Shown here piece after piece: positions 54,561 to 64,000 of a stretch of DNA of 64,000 bases (positions are counted from its first letter, which is position 1; every line of letters starts with the position of its first letter). The translations under genes and the position numbers were made by a program. The DNA is from Nguyenibacter vanlangensis (GTDB lineage Bacteria > Pseudomonadota > Alphaproteobacteria > Acetobacterales > Acetobacteraceae): NCBI RefSeq assembly GCF_038719015.1, contig NZ_CP152276.1, positions 1,436,001 to 1,500,000 on the forward strand. The letters run 5' to 3'. The notes beneath the pieces are model-generated. The model saw only the letters and a program-made list of their open reading frames with translations. It did no database searches and was not told the DNA's origin.

Positions 54561-55368
54561 CCGGCGTCGTACCATGACACGCGGGCATCCGGCAGGATCA
54601 CGGACGCGCGCGCGGAGATCTATCGCCGGTTGACGACATGACGGCCCGGTCCGCATCCGCCAGCGTGTCGCGGACCACGGGCAACAAAGCCCTTTTCCTT
54701 GCAATAGAGTTCCGGTTCCGGCTGCGCGGCGGCCGCCGGGATCATGGCGTCGACTGCAAAAAACCTGCCGAGTACCGGCTCACGCAAGCAGGCGCGATCA
54801 GCATGGAATTGTCCGGAAGGTAAAAAACCCCGGCCAAACCACGTGATTCACGGATACGGATGAAGCCGTCACCATGCGACAAGCGTCGCCTGACTCGCCG
54901 CGCGTTTATAATTTCATTGTAACGACTCTTAGTTCGTCAAATCCAGGCTACATGGACGATTCAGCCCCAAAACGTAACGCCGCAAGCTCCGCCATTCCCG
55001 GTTCCAGAAAAGAACCGAAATATCCCAAGGAAACAGAAATGATATTAGATAATATTCCAAAATCCGTTGGAAATTATAAAAAAATAGAACACCAGAACAT
55101 ATTGGAATTCTATTTTTATATAAAAAACTATATCAATCCATGACTCGGTCATGGATTGTTTGAAACGAAAAAACCTAAAGCAGAGACATTATGTCCATAT
55201 CTCGTCTCTCTTTCAAGAAAAATCGTTATCAATTAAATTTTAAAAGTCTTCCGCCGAATCTTCGTGGACTTCGTTTGTGTGTCGTCAACAAACTCTATCG
55301 TTCTGAAGCACCTTCTGGGTATTCGGAACCGCCTGATCACGTCACCTCGTTCAAAACCGGAGGTCGCT
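54561..55368. other. Gene-free region turning AT-rich
   Basis: 808 bases. The first 250 are GC-rich with no convincing gene. From about 54840 it becomes AT-rich (for example 55060-55135). An 89-codon frame (54874-55143) and a short frame from 55191 have no recognisable family and are not called. The last part is the probable promoter and leader of the Hint-domain gene. Confidence 0.6.
55134..55158 (+). terminator. Hairpin in the AT-rich region before the Hint gene
   Basis: Perfect 11-bp stem CAATCCATGAC / GTCATGGATTG with a TCG loop. It could be a terminator for an unrecognised small transcript or a leader structure. Confidence 0.45.
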
Positions 55369-56763
55369 GTGGAAGAACAAATGACTATCAACAATTCCCT
55401 CAATCTGTTGGGGGCTATTGGAACGGGCCTTACGCCTCTCGAAGGAACCGTGGTTGTCAACTATGCCGACAACACCGTAACGGGATCGCTGAATCTGCAA
55501 GCTGCGGGATTACTCAGCGCTCAGACCTACGATAACCTTACCTTAACCCAATCCGGCAGCAATTATACGATTTCCGGAACGAACGGCCTGACCAGCGTCG
55601 CCGTCACCTATACCGGACAGGCACCGACTTCTTCCACATCCACCGTTACCTTGCTCAGCACCGGCATCGCCGCGGCTTCAGGCACGGGCAGCGTGACATC
55701 GTCGGTCGTTTGCTTTGCTTCCGGAACGCTGATCCGGACTCCGGATGGCGACGTGGCGATCGAGACGCTTTCACCGGGCGATCGGGTGATCACGGCGTCG
55801 GGCGTCGAGCGCTCGATCAAATGGATGGGACATGCGACCATCGATTGCCGCAGGCACGCCAAGCCCAGCCAGGTCAAACCGATCAGAATCTCGGCCGGCG
55901 CATTTGCTCCGGGACTTCCGTCGCAAGATCTCTGGGTGTCGCCCGGTCACAGCGTGTGCGTTCCGGTCCTCGACGAAGTGCTGGTGCCGGCGGATCTGCT
56001 GGTAAACGGCTCGACGGTCCAGCAGATCAACTGCCAGGAAATTACGTACTGGCACCTCGAACTGGACAGCCACGATATCATCCTGGCGAACGGCCTGCCG
56101 GCCGAGAGCTATCTCGACGTGGACAATCGCTCCTTCTTCCTGACCGGAGAAGGCCTGCTCGATCCCGACAGGTCGGCATCCGATCTCAGTAACTATTGCC
56201 GCCCGTTCACTATCGACGAATTGATCATCAAGGCGATCAGGGCGCGCCTGCGTACCCGTGCCCAGGCCCTGGGTTGGCGCTTGACCGATTTTCAGCTCAA
56301 TGAAGTGCTGATCATCGCCGATGGCGATGTCTATCATCCTACGGTTCATGGGCAAACGCTGCGCTACGTGCTGCCGGCTTCGATCAAGAACGCGACGCTG
56401 GTCAGCCCGACGAACGCGGCGGCCTTCGTTACGGACAGTATGGACCGGCGCGAACTCGGTATCGCCATTCGGTCCGTCACCATCGATGACGGGATCGGTG
56501 CCTGCCGCACGGTATCGGCCGACGATGACGTGCTGAGCCTTGGGGCTTATGGCGCAGAGGGCCCGGCCGATGCACGTTTCCGCTGGACCTCCAACCGCCT
56601 GCCCCTGCCCTCATCTCTCTGGAACGACTGCAAGGGTCATTTCTTCATCCGCTTCGACCTCGGTCATAGCGGCCTGCCGCGCTGGAATGCGCCGGAAGCA
56701 GGAGAACCCACGCAGGGCAAAGACCCACAGTTTCATGCCGCCAAGCTGAATCGCGCCGCATAG
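55369..56763 (+). CDS. Hint-domain (Hedgehog/intein) protein
   Basis: 464 residues from GTG 55369, which sits 5 bases after CCGGAGG; ATG 55381 is an alternative. The N-terminal 115 residues are Thr/Ser/Gly/Asn-rich and beta-strand-like. The Hint domain begins at CFASGTLIRTPDGDVAIETLSPGDRVIT (catalytic Cys about 116) and includes VSPGHSVCVP with the usual TxxH/H block. Proteins of this type are common in acetic acid bacteria and rhodobacteria; self-cleavage or anchoring of secreted or surface proteins is suggested, not shown. Followed by a terminator. Lower GC than its neighbours. Confidence 0.88.
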   Translation: MEEQMTINNSLNLLGAIGTGLTPLEGTVVVNYADNTVTGSLNLQAAGLLSAQTYDNLTLTQSGSNYTISGTNGLTSVAVTYTGQAPTSSTSTVTLLSTGIAAASGTGSVTSSVVCFASGTLIRTPDGDVAIETLSPGDRVITASGVERSIKWMGHATIDCRRHAKPSQVKPIRISAGAFAPGLPSQDLWVSPGHSVCVPVLDEVLVPADLLVNGSTVQQINCQEITYWHLELDSHDIILANGLPAESYLDVDNRSFFLTGEGLLDPDRSASDLSNYCRPFTIDELIIKAIRARLRTRAQALGWRLTDFQLNEVLIIADGDVYHPTVHGQTLRYVLPASIKNATLVSPTNAAAFVTDSMDRRELGIAIRSVTIDDGIGACRTVSADDDVLSLGAYGAEGPADARFRWTSNRLPLPSSLWNDCKGHFFIRFDLGHSGLPRWNAPEAGEPTQGKDPQFHAAKLNRAA

Positions 56764-56879: not shown

Positions 56880-58622
56880 TTATTGCTTCGCGTTCAGGAA
56901 GGAATGGATCTGGCCATTGACATTCGGCCCGACCGGCGTGTTCTGGCTGGCCAGGTCCTGGATGAAGCCGGCGATGTTGACGTCCGCCCGGTTGGCCGGA
57001 ATGTCGCCATAGCCGCCCAGGCCGCCATTGCCGTAACGCAGATCGACCGCCGACGCGTCGGACTTGATCTGCACCTTCACCGTCGGCGACAGCGTGCCGC
57101 CACGGCGGTTTTCAACCGTGTCGATAAAGGATTCGACCAGCCCGCCCGGCATCACGTAGTGCGAGTAGGACTGGAACGCCCGCGGATTCTGCTGCGGGTT
57201 GGCGTCGTAATCCGTGCCCGCCGCCGTGTTGAGGTCCGTCGGGTTGCCCAGCACCAGGCCACTGCCATAGTTCATCGGCTGGAAGTCGCTGCGGATGCCG
57301 TTGCCGACGAAGCCGTACACACCGTCCGGACCATCCACGCCCGCCGCATAGGTCGTGCGGTGGCTGATCGTGAAGATGTAGTATTTACCGTCCTTGATAT
57401 ACATCTGCGGACGTTCGGTCTGGTCGTTGACGCAGTTGGCCTCGACCAGTGGCGTGAGGAACTTCCACTTCGACAGCGACGCGTCCTCGGCAACCGCCAG
57501 GCCGATCGCTGCCTTCTGGTAATAGGCGCCGCTATCCAGCACCTGCTGCAGGGTCTCGGCATGCGGATCGTTCGGGCGATAGCCCAGGTCCGTCGCGGTG
57601 CAGTTCGGGATACCGCGCTGGCCGGGGGTGTTGCCCTCGAACACCATGTAGTTCACGCCAGGATGGTTCGGATCCTCGAAGGTGAACGGATCACGGAAAT
57701 TATAGTACGGGTTCTGCGCCCCGTTCTGGTACAGCACCCCGTCGGGACGCAGCAGCGGCGTGTGCGTGGTAAAGCCGGTGAACCAGACATGGTTGAAGTC
57801 GGCATGGATCTGGCCCAGGCTCTGGGTGATCACCGCCTGGGCGGGGGTGATGTCCTGCCCGGCCGCATTCCGGTTGAATGCCATGTCGGTATAGAACAGC
57901 GACACCTGGTTGCTGTTCGGGTCCAGCAGGCGCATCGACCCCGACCATTCCGCCGTGATCGTGTAGGTCGTGCCGGCGAAGACCTGTTCCTGCGCGCCTT
58001 CGGGGATGATGTGCCCGCCATAGATCCAGCCGCCATTCGCCGGGCGCTTGTCGGCCGGAATGCCGGCGCGGCGGTAGAAGAAGCCGATCCGCGCATGGGT
58101 GTGGCGGTCATCGAAGCCATAGCCGGCATTCTTGTCGGCGGTCAGGCAGAAGATGACTTCCCAGCCGTTATAGCTGAACTGGTTGGCATGCTTGTCGATC
58201 AGCGTCCAGGTGTCCCACACCCAGACATCCGGATTGATCGTCGGGAAATCCGCCGGAATATCCGGCATGATCAACTGCCCGGGCAGCGAGTTCTGGCCCG
58301 CCGCGACCGACGGGTTGGAATGCGCCTTGATCTGCATCGCGTCGGCGCGCGTCCAGTGCGCGGTAAAGTCCGCATCGGGCGCATAGGCCTGCTGCGTGTG
58401 GATCGTCGGCAGCGGGAAGCCGGGCACGCCCGTCAGCGACGTTCCGGGGAACAGCCGGGCGGCATGCGGCATCATGCCGACATGCGGCGCGACGCGCACT
58501 GCTTCGCGCTGTTCGTCGGGCGTCACGTCGCGCGCCAGCGCGGCATGCGCCGTCGTGGTGAGAGCCAGCGTCCCGACCAGGGCCATTTTCAGGGTGAGAT
58601 TCCGTCGGCGTACGTTCGCCAT
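56880..58622 (-). CDS. lsdA: Levansucrase (glycoside hydrolase family 68), secreted
   Basis: 580 residues from ATG 58622, preceded by GGAGGA. A signal peptide ends near residue 27-30 (TTTAHAALA). The five-bladed GH68 fold shows all catalytic residues: nucleophile Asp137 (VWVWDTW), transition-state Asp311 (NFRDPF) and acid/base Glu403 (DQTERPQMY), plus the Cys341/Cys397 pair expected to be disulfide-bonded, as in Gluconacetobacter LsdA. It splits sucrose and makes levan and fructo-oligosaccharides outside the cell. No levanase gene (lsdB) follows; the next gene is a Hint-domain protein on the other strand. Confidence 0.97.
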   Translation of the reverse strand: MANVRRRNLTLKMALVGTLALTTTAHAALARDVTPDEQREAVRVAPHVGMMPHAARLFPGTSLTGVPGFPLPTIHTQQAYAPDADFTAHWTRADAMQIKAHSNPSVAAGQNSLPGQLIMPDIPADFPTINPDVWVWDTWTLIDKHANQFSYNGWEVIFCLTADKNAGYGFDDRHTHARIGFFYRRAGIPADKRPANGGWIYGGHIIPEGAQEQVFAGTTYTITAEWSGSMRLLDPNSNQVSLFYTDMAFNRNAAGQDITPAQAVITQSLGQIHADFNHVWFTGFTTHTPLLRPDGVLYQNGAQNPYYNFRDPFTFEDPNHPGVNYMVFEGNTPGQRGIPNCTATDLGYRPNDPHAETLQQVLDSGAYYQKAAIGLAVAEDASLSKWKFLTPLVEANCVNDQTERPQMYIKDGKYYIFTISHRTTYAAGVDGPDGVYGFVGNGIRSDFQPMNYGSGLVLGNPTDLNTAAGTDYDANPQQNPRAFQSYSHYVMPGGLVESFIDTVENRRGGTLSPTVKVQIKSDASAVDLRYGNGGLGGYGDIPANRADVNIAGFIQDLASQNTPVGPNVNGQIHSFLNAKQ

Positions 58623-59319
58623 TTCATCCTCCATACGGGAAAGAGACAAGCAACCTAAAGGGAGGGTCCGATTGCATGAGCGAAGCCTGAGCAGCGCGCG
58701 CGAATAGACTCCCCGAACGCTTTCAGGCTGCGGCCACGTAACCGTGAGAATGCTCGGAATGAAACGATAGACTTCAATAATAACCGCCACAAATGTGGCG
58801 AAAAACCGTAATAACACTTACATCAGGAATAACAACATTCGCGTATGTTTTTATTTACTAAACCGCGAATATATGAATAGTCCCTACCCTCCTCGCACGT
58901 TTAACCTCTAAAATTCCTCCGCAGCGCACCACCAACTGATGTGAAGCCTGCGGGACAGTAAGATCATGAAACGGCGATATCGACAACCGCCGATTTCGAC
59001 AAAAAGGAATTTTTTTTCATCCAAGCATTTCAGACATAAAATTGTCATATTTTCGAGACACGAACATCAATTCTACTCGATATTTCTTTATTTTCCGGAA
59101 ATGTATTTAACAATTTACCTGTTGATTTTGTTAAGTTATTTACTTGTTTCTACAAAAAATTTTGTGGATACACTCTCAATACCCGCGACAGTGCCCGCGA
59201 CAATGCGATGACGTCATCTTTGACCCCGCCCATCCCCATCACGCGATCGCGCAGCCCATGCCGGGTGAAAAGTCTCTATGATCGCCGCGGCGCGGCAGGA
59301 CAAGCAGGGCGACGGTGAC
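58623..59319. other. Intergenic region carrying the lsdA promoter
   Basis: 697 bases between the divergent lsdA and lipoprotein genes. 58800-59210 is AT-rich. An 81-codon Lys/Phe-rich frame at 58966-59211 is composed of AT-rich DNA and is not called. The lsdA promoter must lie within 58623-58960, where a 16-bp palindrome is present. Confidence 0.65.
58785..58800. promoter_or_regulatory. 16-bp palindrome upstream of lsdA
   Basis: CGCCACAAATGTGGCG is a palindrome with 7-bp arms around a central AA; it lies 163 bases before the lsdA start codon and may be an operator. Confidence 0.5.
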
Positions 59320-59835: not shown

Positions 59836-60942
59836 TCAGGCGCCATGGATGGGCGTGGGGCTTCTGTCGCCCCGATAGACGCGTCCGAACCGGTTTTCGA
59901 GAAAGGCCGCCAGCGCGATGTCCTCTTGCCGGACCACGCCGCGTTCCGGCAGGTGACCGTCCTTCAACAGGTCCAGCACCGCGCAGATCGCGCCGGCTGT
60001 CGTGATCTGGATCGCGGTACGCGGCCGGCCATGCACGATGTCGCCATGGATGCGGCGGACGAAGCTTTCCTGCATCAGCCGTCCGTCGCGCCGGCCGGAA
60101 ACCGTAACGAAGATCAAAACGACGTCCTGCCGGGTCGCCGGAATGGCATATTCCAGAATATCCTTTAACAAATCGCGTCGTTCCGCAAGGCGCAGGTCCC
60201 GCAGCAGCATCTTCATCGCCTGCGCGTGGCCGGGATAGCGAATGGTACGGTAATTCAGTTCCCGCACCGCGCCGGCATAGGTTTCACACAGCGAGCCGAG
60301 CCCCCCCGAGGTATTGAAGGCTTCGTAGGTCACGCCATCCACCCCCAGCGTTTCCAGCCCCTCCAACGCCGGAACCATGCGGCGTTCGCCCGCCACGATG
60401 GCCTCGCACGGTTCGATATATTCGTTGATGACGCCGTCCGTGCTCCAGGTCAGGTTATAGCCGAGGGCATTGGAGGGAAATTCCGGCAACGCGCCGACAC
60501 GCAGATGGATCGTGTCCAGGGCGTCGAACCGCCGGGCGATGTCATGGGCGACGATGGAGACGAAGCCGGGCGCCAGGCCGCATTGCGGCACGAAGGCGGT
60601 GCGCGCGCCGGCCGCATGGTCGCGTACTGCGCGGGTGCTGGCCACGTCCTCGGTCAGGTCCAGATAATGGAGCCCGGCCTCGGCCGCGGCGCGCGCGATC
60701 GTCGTGGTCAGATGATAGGGGGCCGCGGACAGCACGGCATAATGCCCATCCATCAGCGGGCGGAGCATGCCGGGCTCCGCGATGTCGGCCTGCAGCTTTC
60801 GGACCGAATCCGCAACGTCGGCGCGATGCAGGCCGGCCTGGTCCCGATCAACCAGGCTGACGGCATAATCGCCGGTGGCGTCAAGGAAATCCGCGATCGT
60901 CGCACCGATCTTGCCGGCGCCGACAACGAGTATCTTCTTCAT
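59836..60942 (-). CDS. Saccharopine dehydrogenase family protein (lysine dehydrogenase-like)
   Basis: 368 residues from ATG 60942 with GGGAGCGGA upstream. The Rossmann motif VVGAGKIGATIADFL is at the N-terminus; PQCGLAPGFVSIVAHDIAR and EAFNTSGGLGSLCETYAG match saccharopine dehydrogenase/lysine 6-dehydrogenase-type reductases. It probably acts on an amino acid with NAD(P). The divergent Lrp-type gene supports an amino-acid-responsive function. Confidence 0.87.
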   Translation of the reverse strand: MKKILVVGAGKIGATIADFLDATGDYAVSLVDRDQAGLHRADVADSVRKLQADIAEPGMLRPLMDGHYAVLSAAPYHLTTTIARAAAEAGLHYLDLTEDVASTRAVRDHAAGARTAFVPQCGLAPGFVSIVAHDIARRFDALDTIHLRVGALPEFPSNALGYNLTWSTDGVINEYIEPCEAIVAGERRMVPALEGLETLGVDGVTYEAFNTSGGLGSLCETYAGAVRELNYRTIRYPGHAQAMKMLLRDLRLAERRDLLKDILEYAIPATRQDVVLIFVTVSGRRDGRLMQESFVRRIHGDIVHGRPRTAIQITTAGAICAVLDLLKDGHLPERGVVRQEDIALAAFLENRFGRVYRGDRSPTPIHGA

Positions 60943-61063
60943 CCGATCCGCTCCCGCCATATGGAATCACGACATCGAACGAAGGAACGATATCGAAAAC
61001 AACTGGCCGTGTGACGCGTCGCGCGGGCTTTTTTTCGGCAGAATGTCGGATAAGATCGGCATT

Positions 61064-61510
61064 ATGCACATGGACGCCACGGACAAAGCCCTGCTCGCCC
61101 TGCTTCAGGACAATGCGCGGATATCGACCGCAGCGCTGGCCCGCCGCACGGGCCTGTCACGCACGACGGTGCAAAGCCGCATCGAACGGATGGAACAGAC
61201 GGGACTGATTGCCGGCTATACGGTCGTGACGGCGCCCGAGGCCGAGGATGCGGTGCGCGCGCACGTGATGGTCACCCTCGCCCCGCGCCATGCCGCGTCG
61301 GTGGAAGCCGCGCTGCGGCACATCGGGGAAGTGCGCGAGCTGCATGCCGTCAGCGGCACGGTGGACATGATCGCGATCGTCGGCGCGGCCTCGACCGAAA
61401 TCATCAATCGCGTCATCGACCGGATCGGATTGCTGGACGGTGTCGAGCGCACGATTTCGGCGATCATCCTGTCCACCCGGTTCCGGCGCCGCGGCACGCA
61501 CGGCCGCTGA
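61064..61510 (+). CDS. Lrp/AsnC family transcriptional regulator
   Basis: 148 residues from ATG 61064 (61043 and 61070 are alternatives; none has a clear ribosome binding site). The helix-turn-helix DKALLALLQDNARISTAALARRTGLSRTTVQSRI is followed by a RAM domain. Divergent from the saccharopine dehydrogenase-like gene with about 120 bases between, which is its likely target. Confidence 0.92.
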   Translation: MHMDATDKALLALLQDNARISTAALARRTGLSRTTVQSRIERMEQTGLIAGYTVVTAPEAEDAVRAHVMVTLAPRHAASVEAALRHIGEVRELHAVSGTVDMIAIVGAASTEIINRVIDRIGLLDGVERTISAIILSTRFRRRGTHGR

Positions 61511-61528
61511 ACACGCGCCCGGGCATGC

Positions 61529-61552
61529 GCAGACCGTCTGGAGGCGGTCTGC
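61529..61552 (+). terminator. Hairpin after the Lrp gene
   Basis: 8-bp stem GCAGACCG / CGGTCTGC with an 8-base loop, 19 bases after the stop. Confidence 0.5.
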
Positions 61553-61674
61553 CATACGGGCGGCAGGCTCGCGATAGAAGGACGGGGGTTTTGCGTCGTC
61601 GGCGCGATACCCCCCAACCGAGCGCACGCTCCCGGACCTCAGGCGCAACTCTCCGGCTCATGATGTTCATGATA

Positions 61675-61696
61675 GCTCCTACTTACAGGTAGGAGC
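61675..61696. repeat. Palindrome GCTCCTAC-N6-GTAGGAGC
   Basis: Perfect 8-bp arms around TTACAG. Position near the composition border; could be a terminator or an attachment-like site. Confidence 0.5.
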
Positions 61697-61819
61697 CCCC
61701 GGAAAACGGGACGCTTCACGTCCAGATCCGGGAACCGGCCGCATGACGATGAAAGGGGCGCAGGGACGGAATCGATTGCAAAAAACACAATTAAATGTTG
61801 CCAAAATAACAATTTAAAA

Positions 61820-61922
61820 TCGCAAAAAAATATGCGTGTTATTAAGAAAGGTACCCATCTGTATTGCACGAAGATTATCGCAAATACCAAACTCACTTCG
61901 CAAAATGACGTTTTTTTTGCGA
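61820..61922. promoter_or_regulatory. Cluster of four TCGCAAA boxes upstream of the SDR operon
   Basis: TCGCAAA at 61820-61826, 61878-61884 and 61898-61904 on the plus strand, and its reverse complement at 61916-61922. The last two form the inverted repeat TTCGCAAAA-N9-TTTTGCGAA, 55 bases before the SDR start. Four copies in 103 bases suggest regulator binding sites. Confidence 0.6.
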
Positions 61923-61978
61923 AATATTGATCCGCGGCACTTTAGGCGTGGTCACGCCCCGAACGTGGAGTAAATAAA

Positions 61979-62725
61979 ATGGCGAATGGCAAGACAGTTA
62001 TGGTTGTCGGAGCTGCCGGAGATATATGCTCTGAAGTCTGCCGTCGACTGGAGAGTGACGGTTACAAATTAATATTGATCGACCGCGATGAGGTTCGGCT
62101 CAACAGGTTGCTCAACACCCTCGACAGTGACCGTGTCACGCCGGTAATCGCTGATGCAGGTGCAACAGAGCCCGCAGACGGAGGCATAGCCGACGCGGTT
62201 GACCAACACCGGCCGGAGGTGCTCATAAACGGTGTCGGCGGCGACACCAAAGTATTAAGGATCGAAGACCTTACGGCAAGCTATGTTGCCGAAAAGATAA
62301 ATGAAAACCTGATAACGACGTTCAACGTAACCAAGCTCTGCGTGCCCCACATGAAAGCCAAACGTTATGGACGCATCGTCAACTTTGCGTCCGCCGGCGG
62401 GCGTACATACAGCCATTTCAATAACGCGGCGTATGTCGCTGCAAAAGCCGCGGTCATCGGGTTTACCAAACAAATAGCATATGAACTCGCTCCCTTCGAT
62501 ATTGTTGCGAACGTCGTTGCACACGGGCCGATGCTGACGAGCCGCATTGAATCCGCGTGGGAGCGGCGCCCCGAAGAGCAGAGGAAGGACGTGCTGAATA
62601 GAATCCCTCTCCGACGGATGGGCACTCTCGATGAAGCCGTCGGAAGCGTAATGTATTTGGCATCTCCTTCCGCGGGTTTCACAACAGGAAGTGTGATGGA
62701 CATCAATGGCGGTCTTTACATGTAA
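61979..62725 (+). CDS. Short-chain dehydrogenase/reductase
   Basis: 248 residues, with GTGGAG ahead of the ATG. Nucleotide motif VVGAAGDICSEV (Gly11, Gly14, but Cys17 in the place of the third Gly), Asp35 after the second strand favouring NAD, catalytic Asn110, Ser138 and Tyr152-x3-Lys156. It is a complete classical SDR. First gene of a likely operon with the YciI-like and GH3 genes. Its GC content is clearly lower than that of the genes to the left. Confidence 0.92.
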   Translation: MANGKTVMVVGAAGDICSEVCRRLESDGYKLILIDRDEVRLNRLLNTLDSDRVTPVIADAGATEPADGGIADAVDQHRPEVLINGVGGDTKVLRIEDLTASYVAEKINENLITTFNVTKLCVPHMKAKRYGRIVNFASAGGRTYSHFNNAAYVAAKAAVIGFTKQIAYELAPFDIVANVVAHGPMLTSRIESAWERRPEEQRKDVLNRIPLRRMGTLDEAVGSVMYLASPSAGFTTGSVMDINGGLYM

Positions 62726-62746
62726 ACTGGCCCAAGGAGATAGGTG

Positions 62747-63022
62747 ATGATTACATTTATTGTAAAATACATATATAACGTTACCAGATCTGCGCGAGAA
62801 CAGGTTATGGCGTCGCATCGAGAAAATCTGGAACAACAAGCGCAGTCGGGCGCCTTGATTTGTGCGGCGCGCGTCGAAGGCGAAGAGGCGGGTGTTCTGA
62901 TATACAAGGCCGAAGATCGCGAGAAACTGGAAAACATACTACAAAAAGAGCCCTATAAGAAAAATGGATTTATAGAAAAGACCGAGATATCGGTTTTGAA
63001 TCCAACAATAGGGCTCCTCTAA
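62747..63022 (+). CDS. YciI-like protein (dimeric alpha-beta barrel)
   Basis: 91 residues from ATG 62747, 7 bases after AAGGAG. FIVKYIYNVTRSAREQVMASHRENL and ALICAARVEGEEAGVLIYKAEDREKLENIL match the YciI/monooxygenase-like fold, including the conserved His in ASHREN. Such small proteins act as catalysts or helpers (lyase, dehalogenase or cyclase-like) in various pathways. Starts 21 bases after the SDR gene. Confidence 0.85.
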   Translation: MITFIVKYIYNVTRSAREQVMASHRENLEQQAQSGALICAARVEGEEAGVLIYKAEDREKLENILQKEPYKKNGFIEKTEISVLNPTIGLL

Positions 63023-63119
63023 CGATCGCAACACCTCAAAAAACGTGAAGACTGGCCATCAGAATATAAAATATTCCAATATCGAATGACGAAGATCCAA
63101 CTCCTGGGAGACCAAAACC

Positions 63120-64000
63120 ATGGCTATCACCGACTGGTCGCTCAATTGGTTCGATCGCAGGTCAAGTTTCATCGAAGAGTGCAACGCTGCGCGCAACGCG
63201 CTTATCGATGATCTAGCCGATGGGGCTGCCACGCAGCAGCGCGTATTGGACGATATATATCGCATTTGCGGCCCATCGCAATCATGGCAACAATCGGGGT
63301 ATAGCGACGCCATCCGGCGTGGCGCAACTTTCCGGGAAATTGTACCAATTCGGACATACGCGGATTTTGAACCGCTCATTGACAGCGAAGTGCACACCAA
63401 GGGTGGCGTTCTGTCGACCAGTCCTGTCCGTCGCTGGTTAAAAACAAGTGGCACGACCGGAAAGCCCAAGCGTATCCCCTATACGGACCACTGGATGACG
63501 GCTTATCGCGTGCCCGCGATGAAGGCGATGTGGGGCACGTTTCTGCTGAATTGTCCGGAACTTCTTGCCCATCCGTATGCGACGTTCGACACCCAGACAG
63601 TCCGCGAAGTCCCCGGCGATCACATCTTTGGCGTGCCTTATCAGGGGATCAGTAACCGCAACCCGCCACTCGGCGCCTCAGATTGGACGCCACCCTGGTA
63701 CGAAGCCCCTTGGTATATCCCCTCTCTCCCCAGCGACCATTTAACCAAAATGTATTACCGGCTACGATGGCTCGTCACGAAAGATGTCCGGTTTTTGACT
63801 GCAATAAACCCAAGCACCATCTTGTCCATACTCGATAGTCTCAAACTGTTCGCATCAGTTCTGGTCAAGGAGATAGCGGACGGATCCGTGGCCGGGATAA
63901 ACATGGTTGCGCCGGATCCGGAAGCGGCTCGGCGGCTGGAGAAAATTCTCGGACGATCCACTTATTCATTGAATGATGTCTGGCCCAACTTGATACATTA
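63120..64000 (+). CDS. GH3 family acyl-adenylating enzyme, N-terminal part
   Basis: The frame is open from ATG 63120 (GGGAG upstream) to the right edge, 293 codons and incomplete. The ATP motif LKTSGTTGKPKRIPYT (Thr109 to Lys117) and the later 'FLTAINPSTILSILDSL' with a following helix are features of GH3 proteins, the plant acyl-acid amido synthetase superfamily within the ANL enzymes. GH3 enzymes adenylate a carboxylic acid (such as indole-acetate or jasmonate in plants) and transfer it to an amine or amino acid. Bacterial members occur in scattered gene clusters and few are characterised. The acceptor-binding C-terminus is outside the window. Confidence 0.85.
   Translation, partial: MAITDWSLNWFDRRSSFIEECNAARNALIDDLADGAATQQRVLDDIYRICGPSQSWQQSGYSDAIRRGATFREIVPIRTYADFEPLIDSEVHTKGGVLSTSPVRRWLKTSGTTGKPKRIPYTDHWMTAYRVPAMKAMWGTFLLNCPELLAHPYATFDTQTVREVPGDHIFGVPYQGISNRNPPLGASDWTPPWYEAPWYIPSLPSDHLTKMYYRLRWLVTKDVRFLTAINPSTILSILDSLKLFASVLVKEIADGSVAGINMVAPDPEAARRLEKILGRSTYSLNDVWPNLIH

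Follow-up and report, generated by a model that had tools for sequence, protein, structure and literature searches.

The right-hand end of the DNA analysed here, a window of 64,000 nucleotides (bases 1436001–1500000 of the single-contig 4.75 Mb genome of Nguyenibacter vanlangensis), carries the start of an operon that encodes a GH3-family enzyme. The host is a rhizosphere acetic acid bacterium. All genes are on the + strand, in the order short-chain dehydrogenase/reductase (SDR), YciI-type protein, GH3, alpha/beta hydrolase, enolase-superfamily enzyme, GguC-like protein, LysR regulator and major facilitator superfamily (MFS) transporter. The GH3 belongs to a conserved and apparently undescribed biosynthetic module, and, with a probability of about 0.6, the operon is a minimal representative, probably acquired, of a family of specialised-metabolite clusters that seems not to have been described and whose members share a GH3, Cys alpha/beta hydrolase and enolase core. 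No published account of a GH3-hydrolase-enolase module was found in the open-licence literature; subscription papers could hold one.

GH3 enzymes are known mainly from plants. The enzyme encoded here has three complete GH3 domains: PF03321 (N-terminal; 112 bits, 4.3e-32), PF23571 (47.4 bits) and PF23572 (39.7 bits), with cut-offs of 23.6. A preliminary description of the window, which saw only the N-terminal half of the gene, had named an early break of the frame past 64000 as a reason to abandon its claim of an undescribed pathway. The frame stays open to 64826 and adds GH3_M and GH3_C domains. Three nucleotide-binding motifs are present, TSGTTGKPK at 109, FMSCGTEGV at 321 and RLYTGD at 395, and residues S110, G111, T113, K117, E327, G399 and D400 are invariant in all 17 aligned sequences; the plant-enzyme motifs used for this comparison are those quoted in the excerpts of PMC12493201 used here. 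The GH3 fold is found along the whole chain. On domains, motifs and predicted fold, the enzyme is a real member of the GH3 acyl acid amido synthetase family. It differs from the plant enzymes GH3.5, GH3.6, JAR1 and PBS3 in being only ~18–21% identical to them, and in being clustered with hydrolase, enolase and FAH-fold enzymes.

The preliminary description called bacterial GH3 proteins rare. This does not hold for the family, as GH3 homologues are widespread across bacterial phyla according to the sections of PMC12493201 used, but it does hold for the clade of the present enzyme. Among 398 genomes sampled across the phylum, six match the GH3 profile at 1e-30, and the window genome, at 854.6 bits, is the only one with a clade-level score; the other five score 111–165 bits. 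One bacterial GH3 with a tested function is OlsH, which makes ornithine lipids (PMC12493201, in part). No other characterised bacterial GH3 was found in the open-licence literature.

The evidence for a module comes from the neighbourhoods of related GH3 genes. GTDB representative genomes were scanned with a 20-sequence GH3 alignment, and 80 of 100 confirmed stretches were kept, which represent 77 distinct loci. With a conspecific locus (L004) excluded from the linkage count, there are 76 loci, 52 of which encode a GH3 with 33.7–53% identity and 24 one with 26–30% identity. Homologues of both the hydrolase and the enolase lie within 4.5 kb of GH3 in 49 of the 52 loci, compared with 1 of the 24 (L078). 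The Fisher test gives 3.5e-15, a value computed over related genomes that are not independent. The three exceptions are L021, which lacks the enolase, L051, which has neither partner, and L054, which also has neither and whose contig stops just past the gene.

A maximum-likelihood tree of 76 rows, with the window protein added and both L004 and the short L061 left out, places the 33.7–53% group (less L061) and the window protein on one side of a branch with support of 100/100; both partners are found in 49 of 52 rows. The presence of both partners requires 5 changes on the tree, with a mean of 22.1 for shuffled labels. Because 5 changes are needed, one gain with no later loss does not account for the trio. 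The module spans Actinomycetota, Pseudomonadota and Gemmatimonadota, with members in Streptomyces, Kitasatospora, Nocardiopsis, Kutzneria, Burkholderia, Pseudomonas, Brenneria, Xenorhabdus, Zooshikella, Bradyrhizobium and one Gemmatimonadaceae genome. Judged by record titles, and in some cases by known habitats, these relatives come from soil, marine, nematode-associated and animal-gut as well as plant-associated sources. A GH3 clade tied to a recurring enzyme set in such different bacteria suggests a kind of natural-product cluster that has been overlooked.

Other partners were counted in the 52 loci with profiles built from the same loci, matches being accepted anywhere in a stretch of up to 10 kb on each side; some contigs end inside the cluster. 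An FAH-fold protein, either GguC-like or canonical, is present in 44 of the loci, an SDR in 43 and a small barrel or tautomerase-like protein (YciI, CHMI or Dabb) in 32; all six classes occur together in 32. Accessory enzymes comprise an aldo-keto reductase (21 loci), an ATP-grasp enzyme (14) and a luciferase-like monooxygenase (12). A thiamine pyrophosphate (TPP) enzyme is found in 23 loci and a pyridoxal phosphate (PLP) aminotransferase in 17, and the two never overlap. The SDR types are split in a similar manner: one type is found in every one of the 15 CHMI loci, the other in each of the 17 YciI loci. It is as if two alternative precursor routes fed one core. A single-module polyketide synthase (PKS) profile is matched in 8 of the 52 loci, and the sole representative scanned with Pfam (L020) reads KS-AT-DH-ACP. 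An AfsA profile is also matched in 8, the sole scanned representative (L036) having PF03756. PKS and AfsA neighbours are marks typical of specialised-metabolite clusters.

By gene content, the window operon is a trimmed-down relative of clusters that many bacteria carry, Streptomyces, Pseudomonas and Xenorhabdus among them. It shares with only one other locus, a Streptomycetaceae metagenome-assembled genome that encodes a canonical FAH protein (L025), the property of having all six core classes while lacking each of the ten accessory families for which profiles were made. Its SDR and YciI proteins are of the types that accompany the PLP set, and the PLP and ATP-grasp enzymes are absent from the operon. 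In a culturable acetic acid bacterium of the rhizosphere, a version with six enzymes opens the product and every step to direct testing.

One of the three exceptions deserves mention in its own right. The locus at L021 10001–12570, from Streptomyces sp. UNOC14_S4, belongs to the GH3 clade; no enolase is matched within 4.5 kb, the nucleophile position of the hydrolase holds a Gly, and the locus is perhaps a decayed copy. The same strain carries a second locus, L047.

The catalytic residues of the partner enzymes are retained and all eight operon frames are open. The SDR triad S138, Y152 and K156 is identical in 23 of 23 aligned SDRs, its own copy counted, and H25 of the YciI-type protein is kept in 18 of 18. 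By profile, the closest solved relatives of the hydrolase are monoglyceride lipases (2.7e-16). The triad Asp and His are kept as in these lipases, but the usual nucleophilic Ser is replaced by Cys in 39 of 51 hydrolase copies; the L037 copy is unaligned at the nucleophile and hence is not counted as Cys.

A KxK motif, a metal-binding D-E-D and a Lys on the opposite face together form the motif of the muconate-lactonizing subgroup. In the enolase-superfamily enzyme these correspond to K165 and K167, D195, E221 and D246, and K273, all invariant in 20 of 20 sequences. In a wider set of 51, both Lys of KxK and the first Asp are kept in 50 each and the remaining residues in all 51. On these residues the enzyme is to be placed in the muconate-lactonizing subgroup of the enolase superfamily. 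Profile comparison puts the enzyme closest, among solved structures, to 2p88 (annotated only as belonging to the family), the dipeptide epimerase 3jva and the Ala-Glu epimerase 1jpm; we take 2p88 to act on N-acyl amino acids. The muconate-lactonizing-subgroup catalytic residues are shared with the dipeptide epimerases and N-acylamino acid racemases (3jva, 1jpm, 1sja and 2p88), whereas F16, H18, R47, Y49, V50 and T51 in the N-terminal part are invariant and specific to the present family. The scores fall below the equivalog cut-offs for dipeptide epimerases and the N-acetyl-D-Glu racemase (DgcA 93.5 vs 400; Ala-Glu epimerases 82.1 vs 500 and 62.2 vs 343).

The GguC-like protein has an FAH fold, its closest match being 2q19 (9.8e-15, 16% identity), with FAH-family entries below. 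No Pfam family was found for it at 0.01. Residues E132, E133, E135, D158 and D161 are invariant in 22 of 22, as is K176, and metal ligands would be among the acidic residues. The fold, these residues and K176 relate the protein to 2-keto-3-deoxy-D-arabinonate dehydratase and the FAH superfamily. It differs from GguC (AraD1) in scoring 86.1 bits against the NF040903 equivalog cut-off of 340, and is only 16% identical to 2q19.

Starting from the observed genes with their intact active-site residues and conserved linkage, and from the membership in the GH3 family and the FAH fold, we infer an order of steps with its substrates, product, export and regulation. The SDR would adjust the oxidation state of a precursor, either an acid or an amine. 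With ATP, GH3 would adenylate a carboxylic acid and join it to an amine through the amino group; the amine is most likely an amino acid, so that the product would be an N-acyl amino acid. The enolase-superfamily enzyme might then take the proton adjacent to the product carboxylate, leading to epimerisation, elimination or ring closure, while dehydration or keto-enol and double-bond steps could be the task of the FAH-fold enzyme and the YciI/muconolactone-isomerase-like protein. The Cys hydrolase would form an acyl-enzyme and then release or cyclise the product. Export by the MFS protein and control of the operon by LysR are guesses. The conserved hydrolase, enolase and FAH-fold partners imply a pathway of several steps rather than one conjugation. 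The product of the operon is probably a small molecule, and the earlier suggestion that it could be a new one is supported as a possibility.

A more specific scheme is tentative, and we think it rather doubtful. It proposes a new class of biosynthetic logic that does without nonribosomal peptide synthetases (NRPS), in which GH3 would furnish an N-acyl amino acid in free form, a dedicated enolase-superfamily enzyme would carry out alpha-proton chemistry on it, the FAH-fold and tautomerase-like proteins keto-enol chemistry and the Cys hydrolase ring closure or release, yielding small cyclic amides in at least three phyla. If true, the window operon would be one minimal six-enzyme form and would thus offer easy access to the product.

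The operon was probably acquired from elsewhere. All 12 other species of the genus that were searched lack a GH3 match, and 5 of the 60 genomes in that search have one, the window genome counted. Directly upstream is a divergent pair of genes, a saccharopine-dehydrogenase-like gene and an AsnC/Lrp regulator (59839–61507). The saccharopine-dehydrogenase-like gene is present in 6 of the 12 other species, and the pair (L002 869–2494; L002 numbering is given with the table) matches as DNA in the five same-genus species fetched, with 80–82% identity. These five, 15–20 kb each, match nothing beyond the pair in 40 kb here, on either side, and an empty site was accordingly not shown. GC content falls from 0.66 at 61001–61500 to 0.53 at 61501–62000, stays at 0.47–0.60 up to ~70500 and then is 0.63–0.73. 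The preliminary description had noted the drop at about 61770 and suggested transfer; the drop is confirmed and the transfer probable. Composition alone is a weak sign of transfer because equally low values occur elsewhere in the window (0.51 at 55–56 kb, 0.55–0.57 at 42–44 kb); it is the lack of GH3 matches in the 12 other species, the comparison of flanks, an IS3 remnant at the end of the GguC gene and the composition drop, taken together, that support acquisition. A plasmid search found the operon on no plasmid, and five plasmids with distant GH3 matches.

The same operon is present in Nguyenibacter vanlangensis LMG 31431 (L004), with proteins 97–100% identical. Over eight genes, whose frames are open, 114 synonymous and 42 non-synonymous codon differences separate the two copies, and for this reason the operon does not look decayed. 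In a protein database search (7,995 candidates scored, 120 of 249 proteins listed and 20 of these aligned), P0001 is 99% identical to the window GH3, and the best relative among the matches listed is P0005, of 442 aa, with 65% identity over 72% of the query. Nguyenibacter sp. L1 is the presumed carrier of the 99% identical GH3, and for this strain the portion of PMC10752598 used lists only RiPP-like, PQQ and terpene clusters from antiSMASH 6.

Several points weigh against assigning the operon to a specialised-metabolite family. The linkage counts rest on genomes that are related and so lack independence. SDR genes are common, and a hit at any place up to 10 kb from GH3 was counted. The tree program flags long branches meeting, the window row (0.98) among them, and the place of the window protein inside the clade is unsure. 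The YciI and GguC proteins of the window lack residues conserved in relatives; in the YciI-type protein, several residues common to the other 17 are altered. The operon is also without the PLP/ATP-grasp and TPP/aldo-keto reductase sets of most relatives. When the PLP aminotransferase of a Streptomyces relative was used as query, the best match in the window genome had an E value of 5e-19, with 31% identity over 180 residues; ATP-grasp, TPP and aldo-keto reductase enzymes were not searched there. Since these accessory sets are missing and the PLP enzyme has no close match in the genome, the product may be different from, or simpler than, those of the relatives. No PKS, NRPS, carrier protein or AfsA was seen among the ten proteins scanned. 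Lastly, the LysR and MFS genes may lie outside the operon proper, because both follow the IS3 remnant and a tblastn search of the relatives' loci with them gave almost no matches.

A rival reading is catabolism. The genes catB-catC-pcaD are part of the beta-ketoadipate and chlorocatechol routes, and the operon could be seen as encoding like enzymes, joined by GguC/FAH and SDR proteins of sugar-acid type, with LysR and MFS sensing and importing a substrate and GH3 activating an acid for breakdown. The YciI-type protein resembles MIase and the enolase enzyme mucon_cyclo, and the FAH fold is nearest to 2-keto-3-deoxy-arabinonate dehydratase. LysR and MFS are neighbours, and an arabinose transporter model is only barely under its cut-off (363.7 vs 364), while the subfamily model is named only MFS transporter. 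Against this, the equivalog models are missed by far, muconate cycloisomerase TIGR02534 by the enolase enzyme (83.9 vs 334.95 bits) and muconolactone isomerase TIGR03221 by the YciI-type protein (17.9 vs 130.6 bits). Ring-cleavage dioxygenase and CoA transferase are absent among the ten proteins scanned, the dioxygenase not having been searched in the remaining genome. Relatives adjoin PKS-, AfsA- or condensation-like genes, and an amide-forming, ATP-consuming GH3 would be unexpected in breakdown. Degradation by the beta-ketoadipate or chlorocatechol route, considered for the combination of enolase, MIase-like protein and Cys hydrolase, was rejected on the missed cut-offs and the lack of a dioxygenase among these ten neighbours. 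A catabolic operon is considered unlikely. The right-hand neighbours, which the preliminary description had left to decide whether a well-known pathway is present, form no identifiable known pathway.

The synthesis of amino lipids is quite improbable. Here GH3 would make an N-acyl amino acid and the alpha/beta-hydrolase-fold protein would O-acylate it, as with OlsH-OlsI of Singulisphaera acidiphila, where a bacterial GH3 is likewise in an operon with an alpha/beta-hydrolase-fold enzyme (PMC12493201, in part). A Cys nucleophile could suit such acyl transfer. Ornithine lipids were considered on this likeness and rejected, as the GH3 scores 39.4 bits with the OlsH lyso-ornithine lipid synthetase model NF052613, against a cut-off of 620. 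Enolase and FAH-fold partners are not mentioned for the OlsH-OlsI pathway, and YciI has no stated place in it, in the sections of PMC12493201 at hand. A Planctomyces GH3 locus (L058; one locus, not known as OlsH) has no match to the window hydrolase within 4.5 kb. More improbable still is the conjugation of plant hormones, proposed in the preliminary description, by which GH3 would link indole-3-acetic acid, jasmonate or salicylate to amino acids and tune rhizosphere hormone pools. It finds no specific support: the low identity to plant enzymes noted above, the marine, nematode-associated and animal-gut sources of relatives and the recurring partner enzymes, superfluous for one conjugation, led to its rejection as the leading reading. 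Least to be expected is a transferred, non-functional remnant. An IS3 fragment lies within the low-GC region, the GH3 branch is long (0.98) and accessory genes are missing; set against these are eight open frames with intact catalytic residues and the second genome with the same operon and its excess of synonymous differences. Furanomycin was also entertained as a product, as a guess from one Pseudomonas relative that is presumably close to a furanomycin producer. Abstracts on it showed no GH3 link, and the candidate was dropped.

The features of the locus are collected below. The first part of the preliminary description is borne out in detail: the first three genes lie in one direction behind purine-rich ribosome binding sites with gaps of 21 and 97 bases, their identities agree with Pfam, and a single operon continues past 64000 from the hydrolase gene to the MFS gene. 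The starts of the hydrolase (GTG 5810), enolase (ATG 6864) and GguC-like (ATG 8057) genes, in L002 positions, were chosen from ribosome binding sites and homologues.

Features of the GH3 operon. L002 is genome 1495001–1515000; window numbering = L002 position + 59000.
Feature	Position	Strand	Basis
AT-rich leader with composition drop; probable promoter/operator region	61770..61978	+	sequence, composition
SDR, 248 aa	61979..62725	+	Pfam PF13561 (adh_short_C2) 4.9e-35; triad S138, Y152, K156
YciI/muconolactone-isomerase-like small barrel protein	62744..63022 (GTG 62744 or ATG 62747)	+	Pfam YCII 4.8e-11, MIase 1.7e-7
GH3-family enzyme (acyl acid amido synthetase type), 568 aa	63120..64826 (L002:4120-5826; 63120..64000 inside window)	+	Pfam
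Alpha/beta hydrolase	L002 5810-6676 (17-base overlap with GH3 end)	+	PF12146 2.6e-21
Enolase-superfamily enzyme	L002 6864-7988 (start possibly 6747)	+	PF13378 1.6e-38
GguC-like protein (FAH fold)	L002 8057-8911	+	NF040903 2.2e-24, below cut-off
IS3-transposase-like remnant, at end of GguC gene	L002 8903-8965	+	
LysR regulator	L002 9141-10046	+	PF03466 8.5e-23
MFS transporter	L002 10154-11359	+	NF003477 432 bits vs cut-off 374

A promoter and terminator scan gave a result near chance (10 promoters found vs 7.1 expected), with no + site and one − site listed in the leader. Beyond the MFS gene lies a LysR gene on the opposite strand. Directly past the IS3 remnant, LMG 31431 is ~66 bases longer (L002 8978–8988 vs L004 13773–13829), with an 11-base overlap at the join. 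Upstream of the operon, the − strand carries a GH68 levansucrase/invertase gene at 56883–58817 (PF02435, 7e-162), and a Hint_2-domain protein is encoded on the + strand at 55264–56760 (PF13403, 5.6e-47), within a stretch of GC 0.51.
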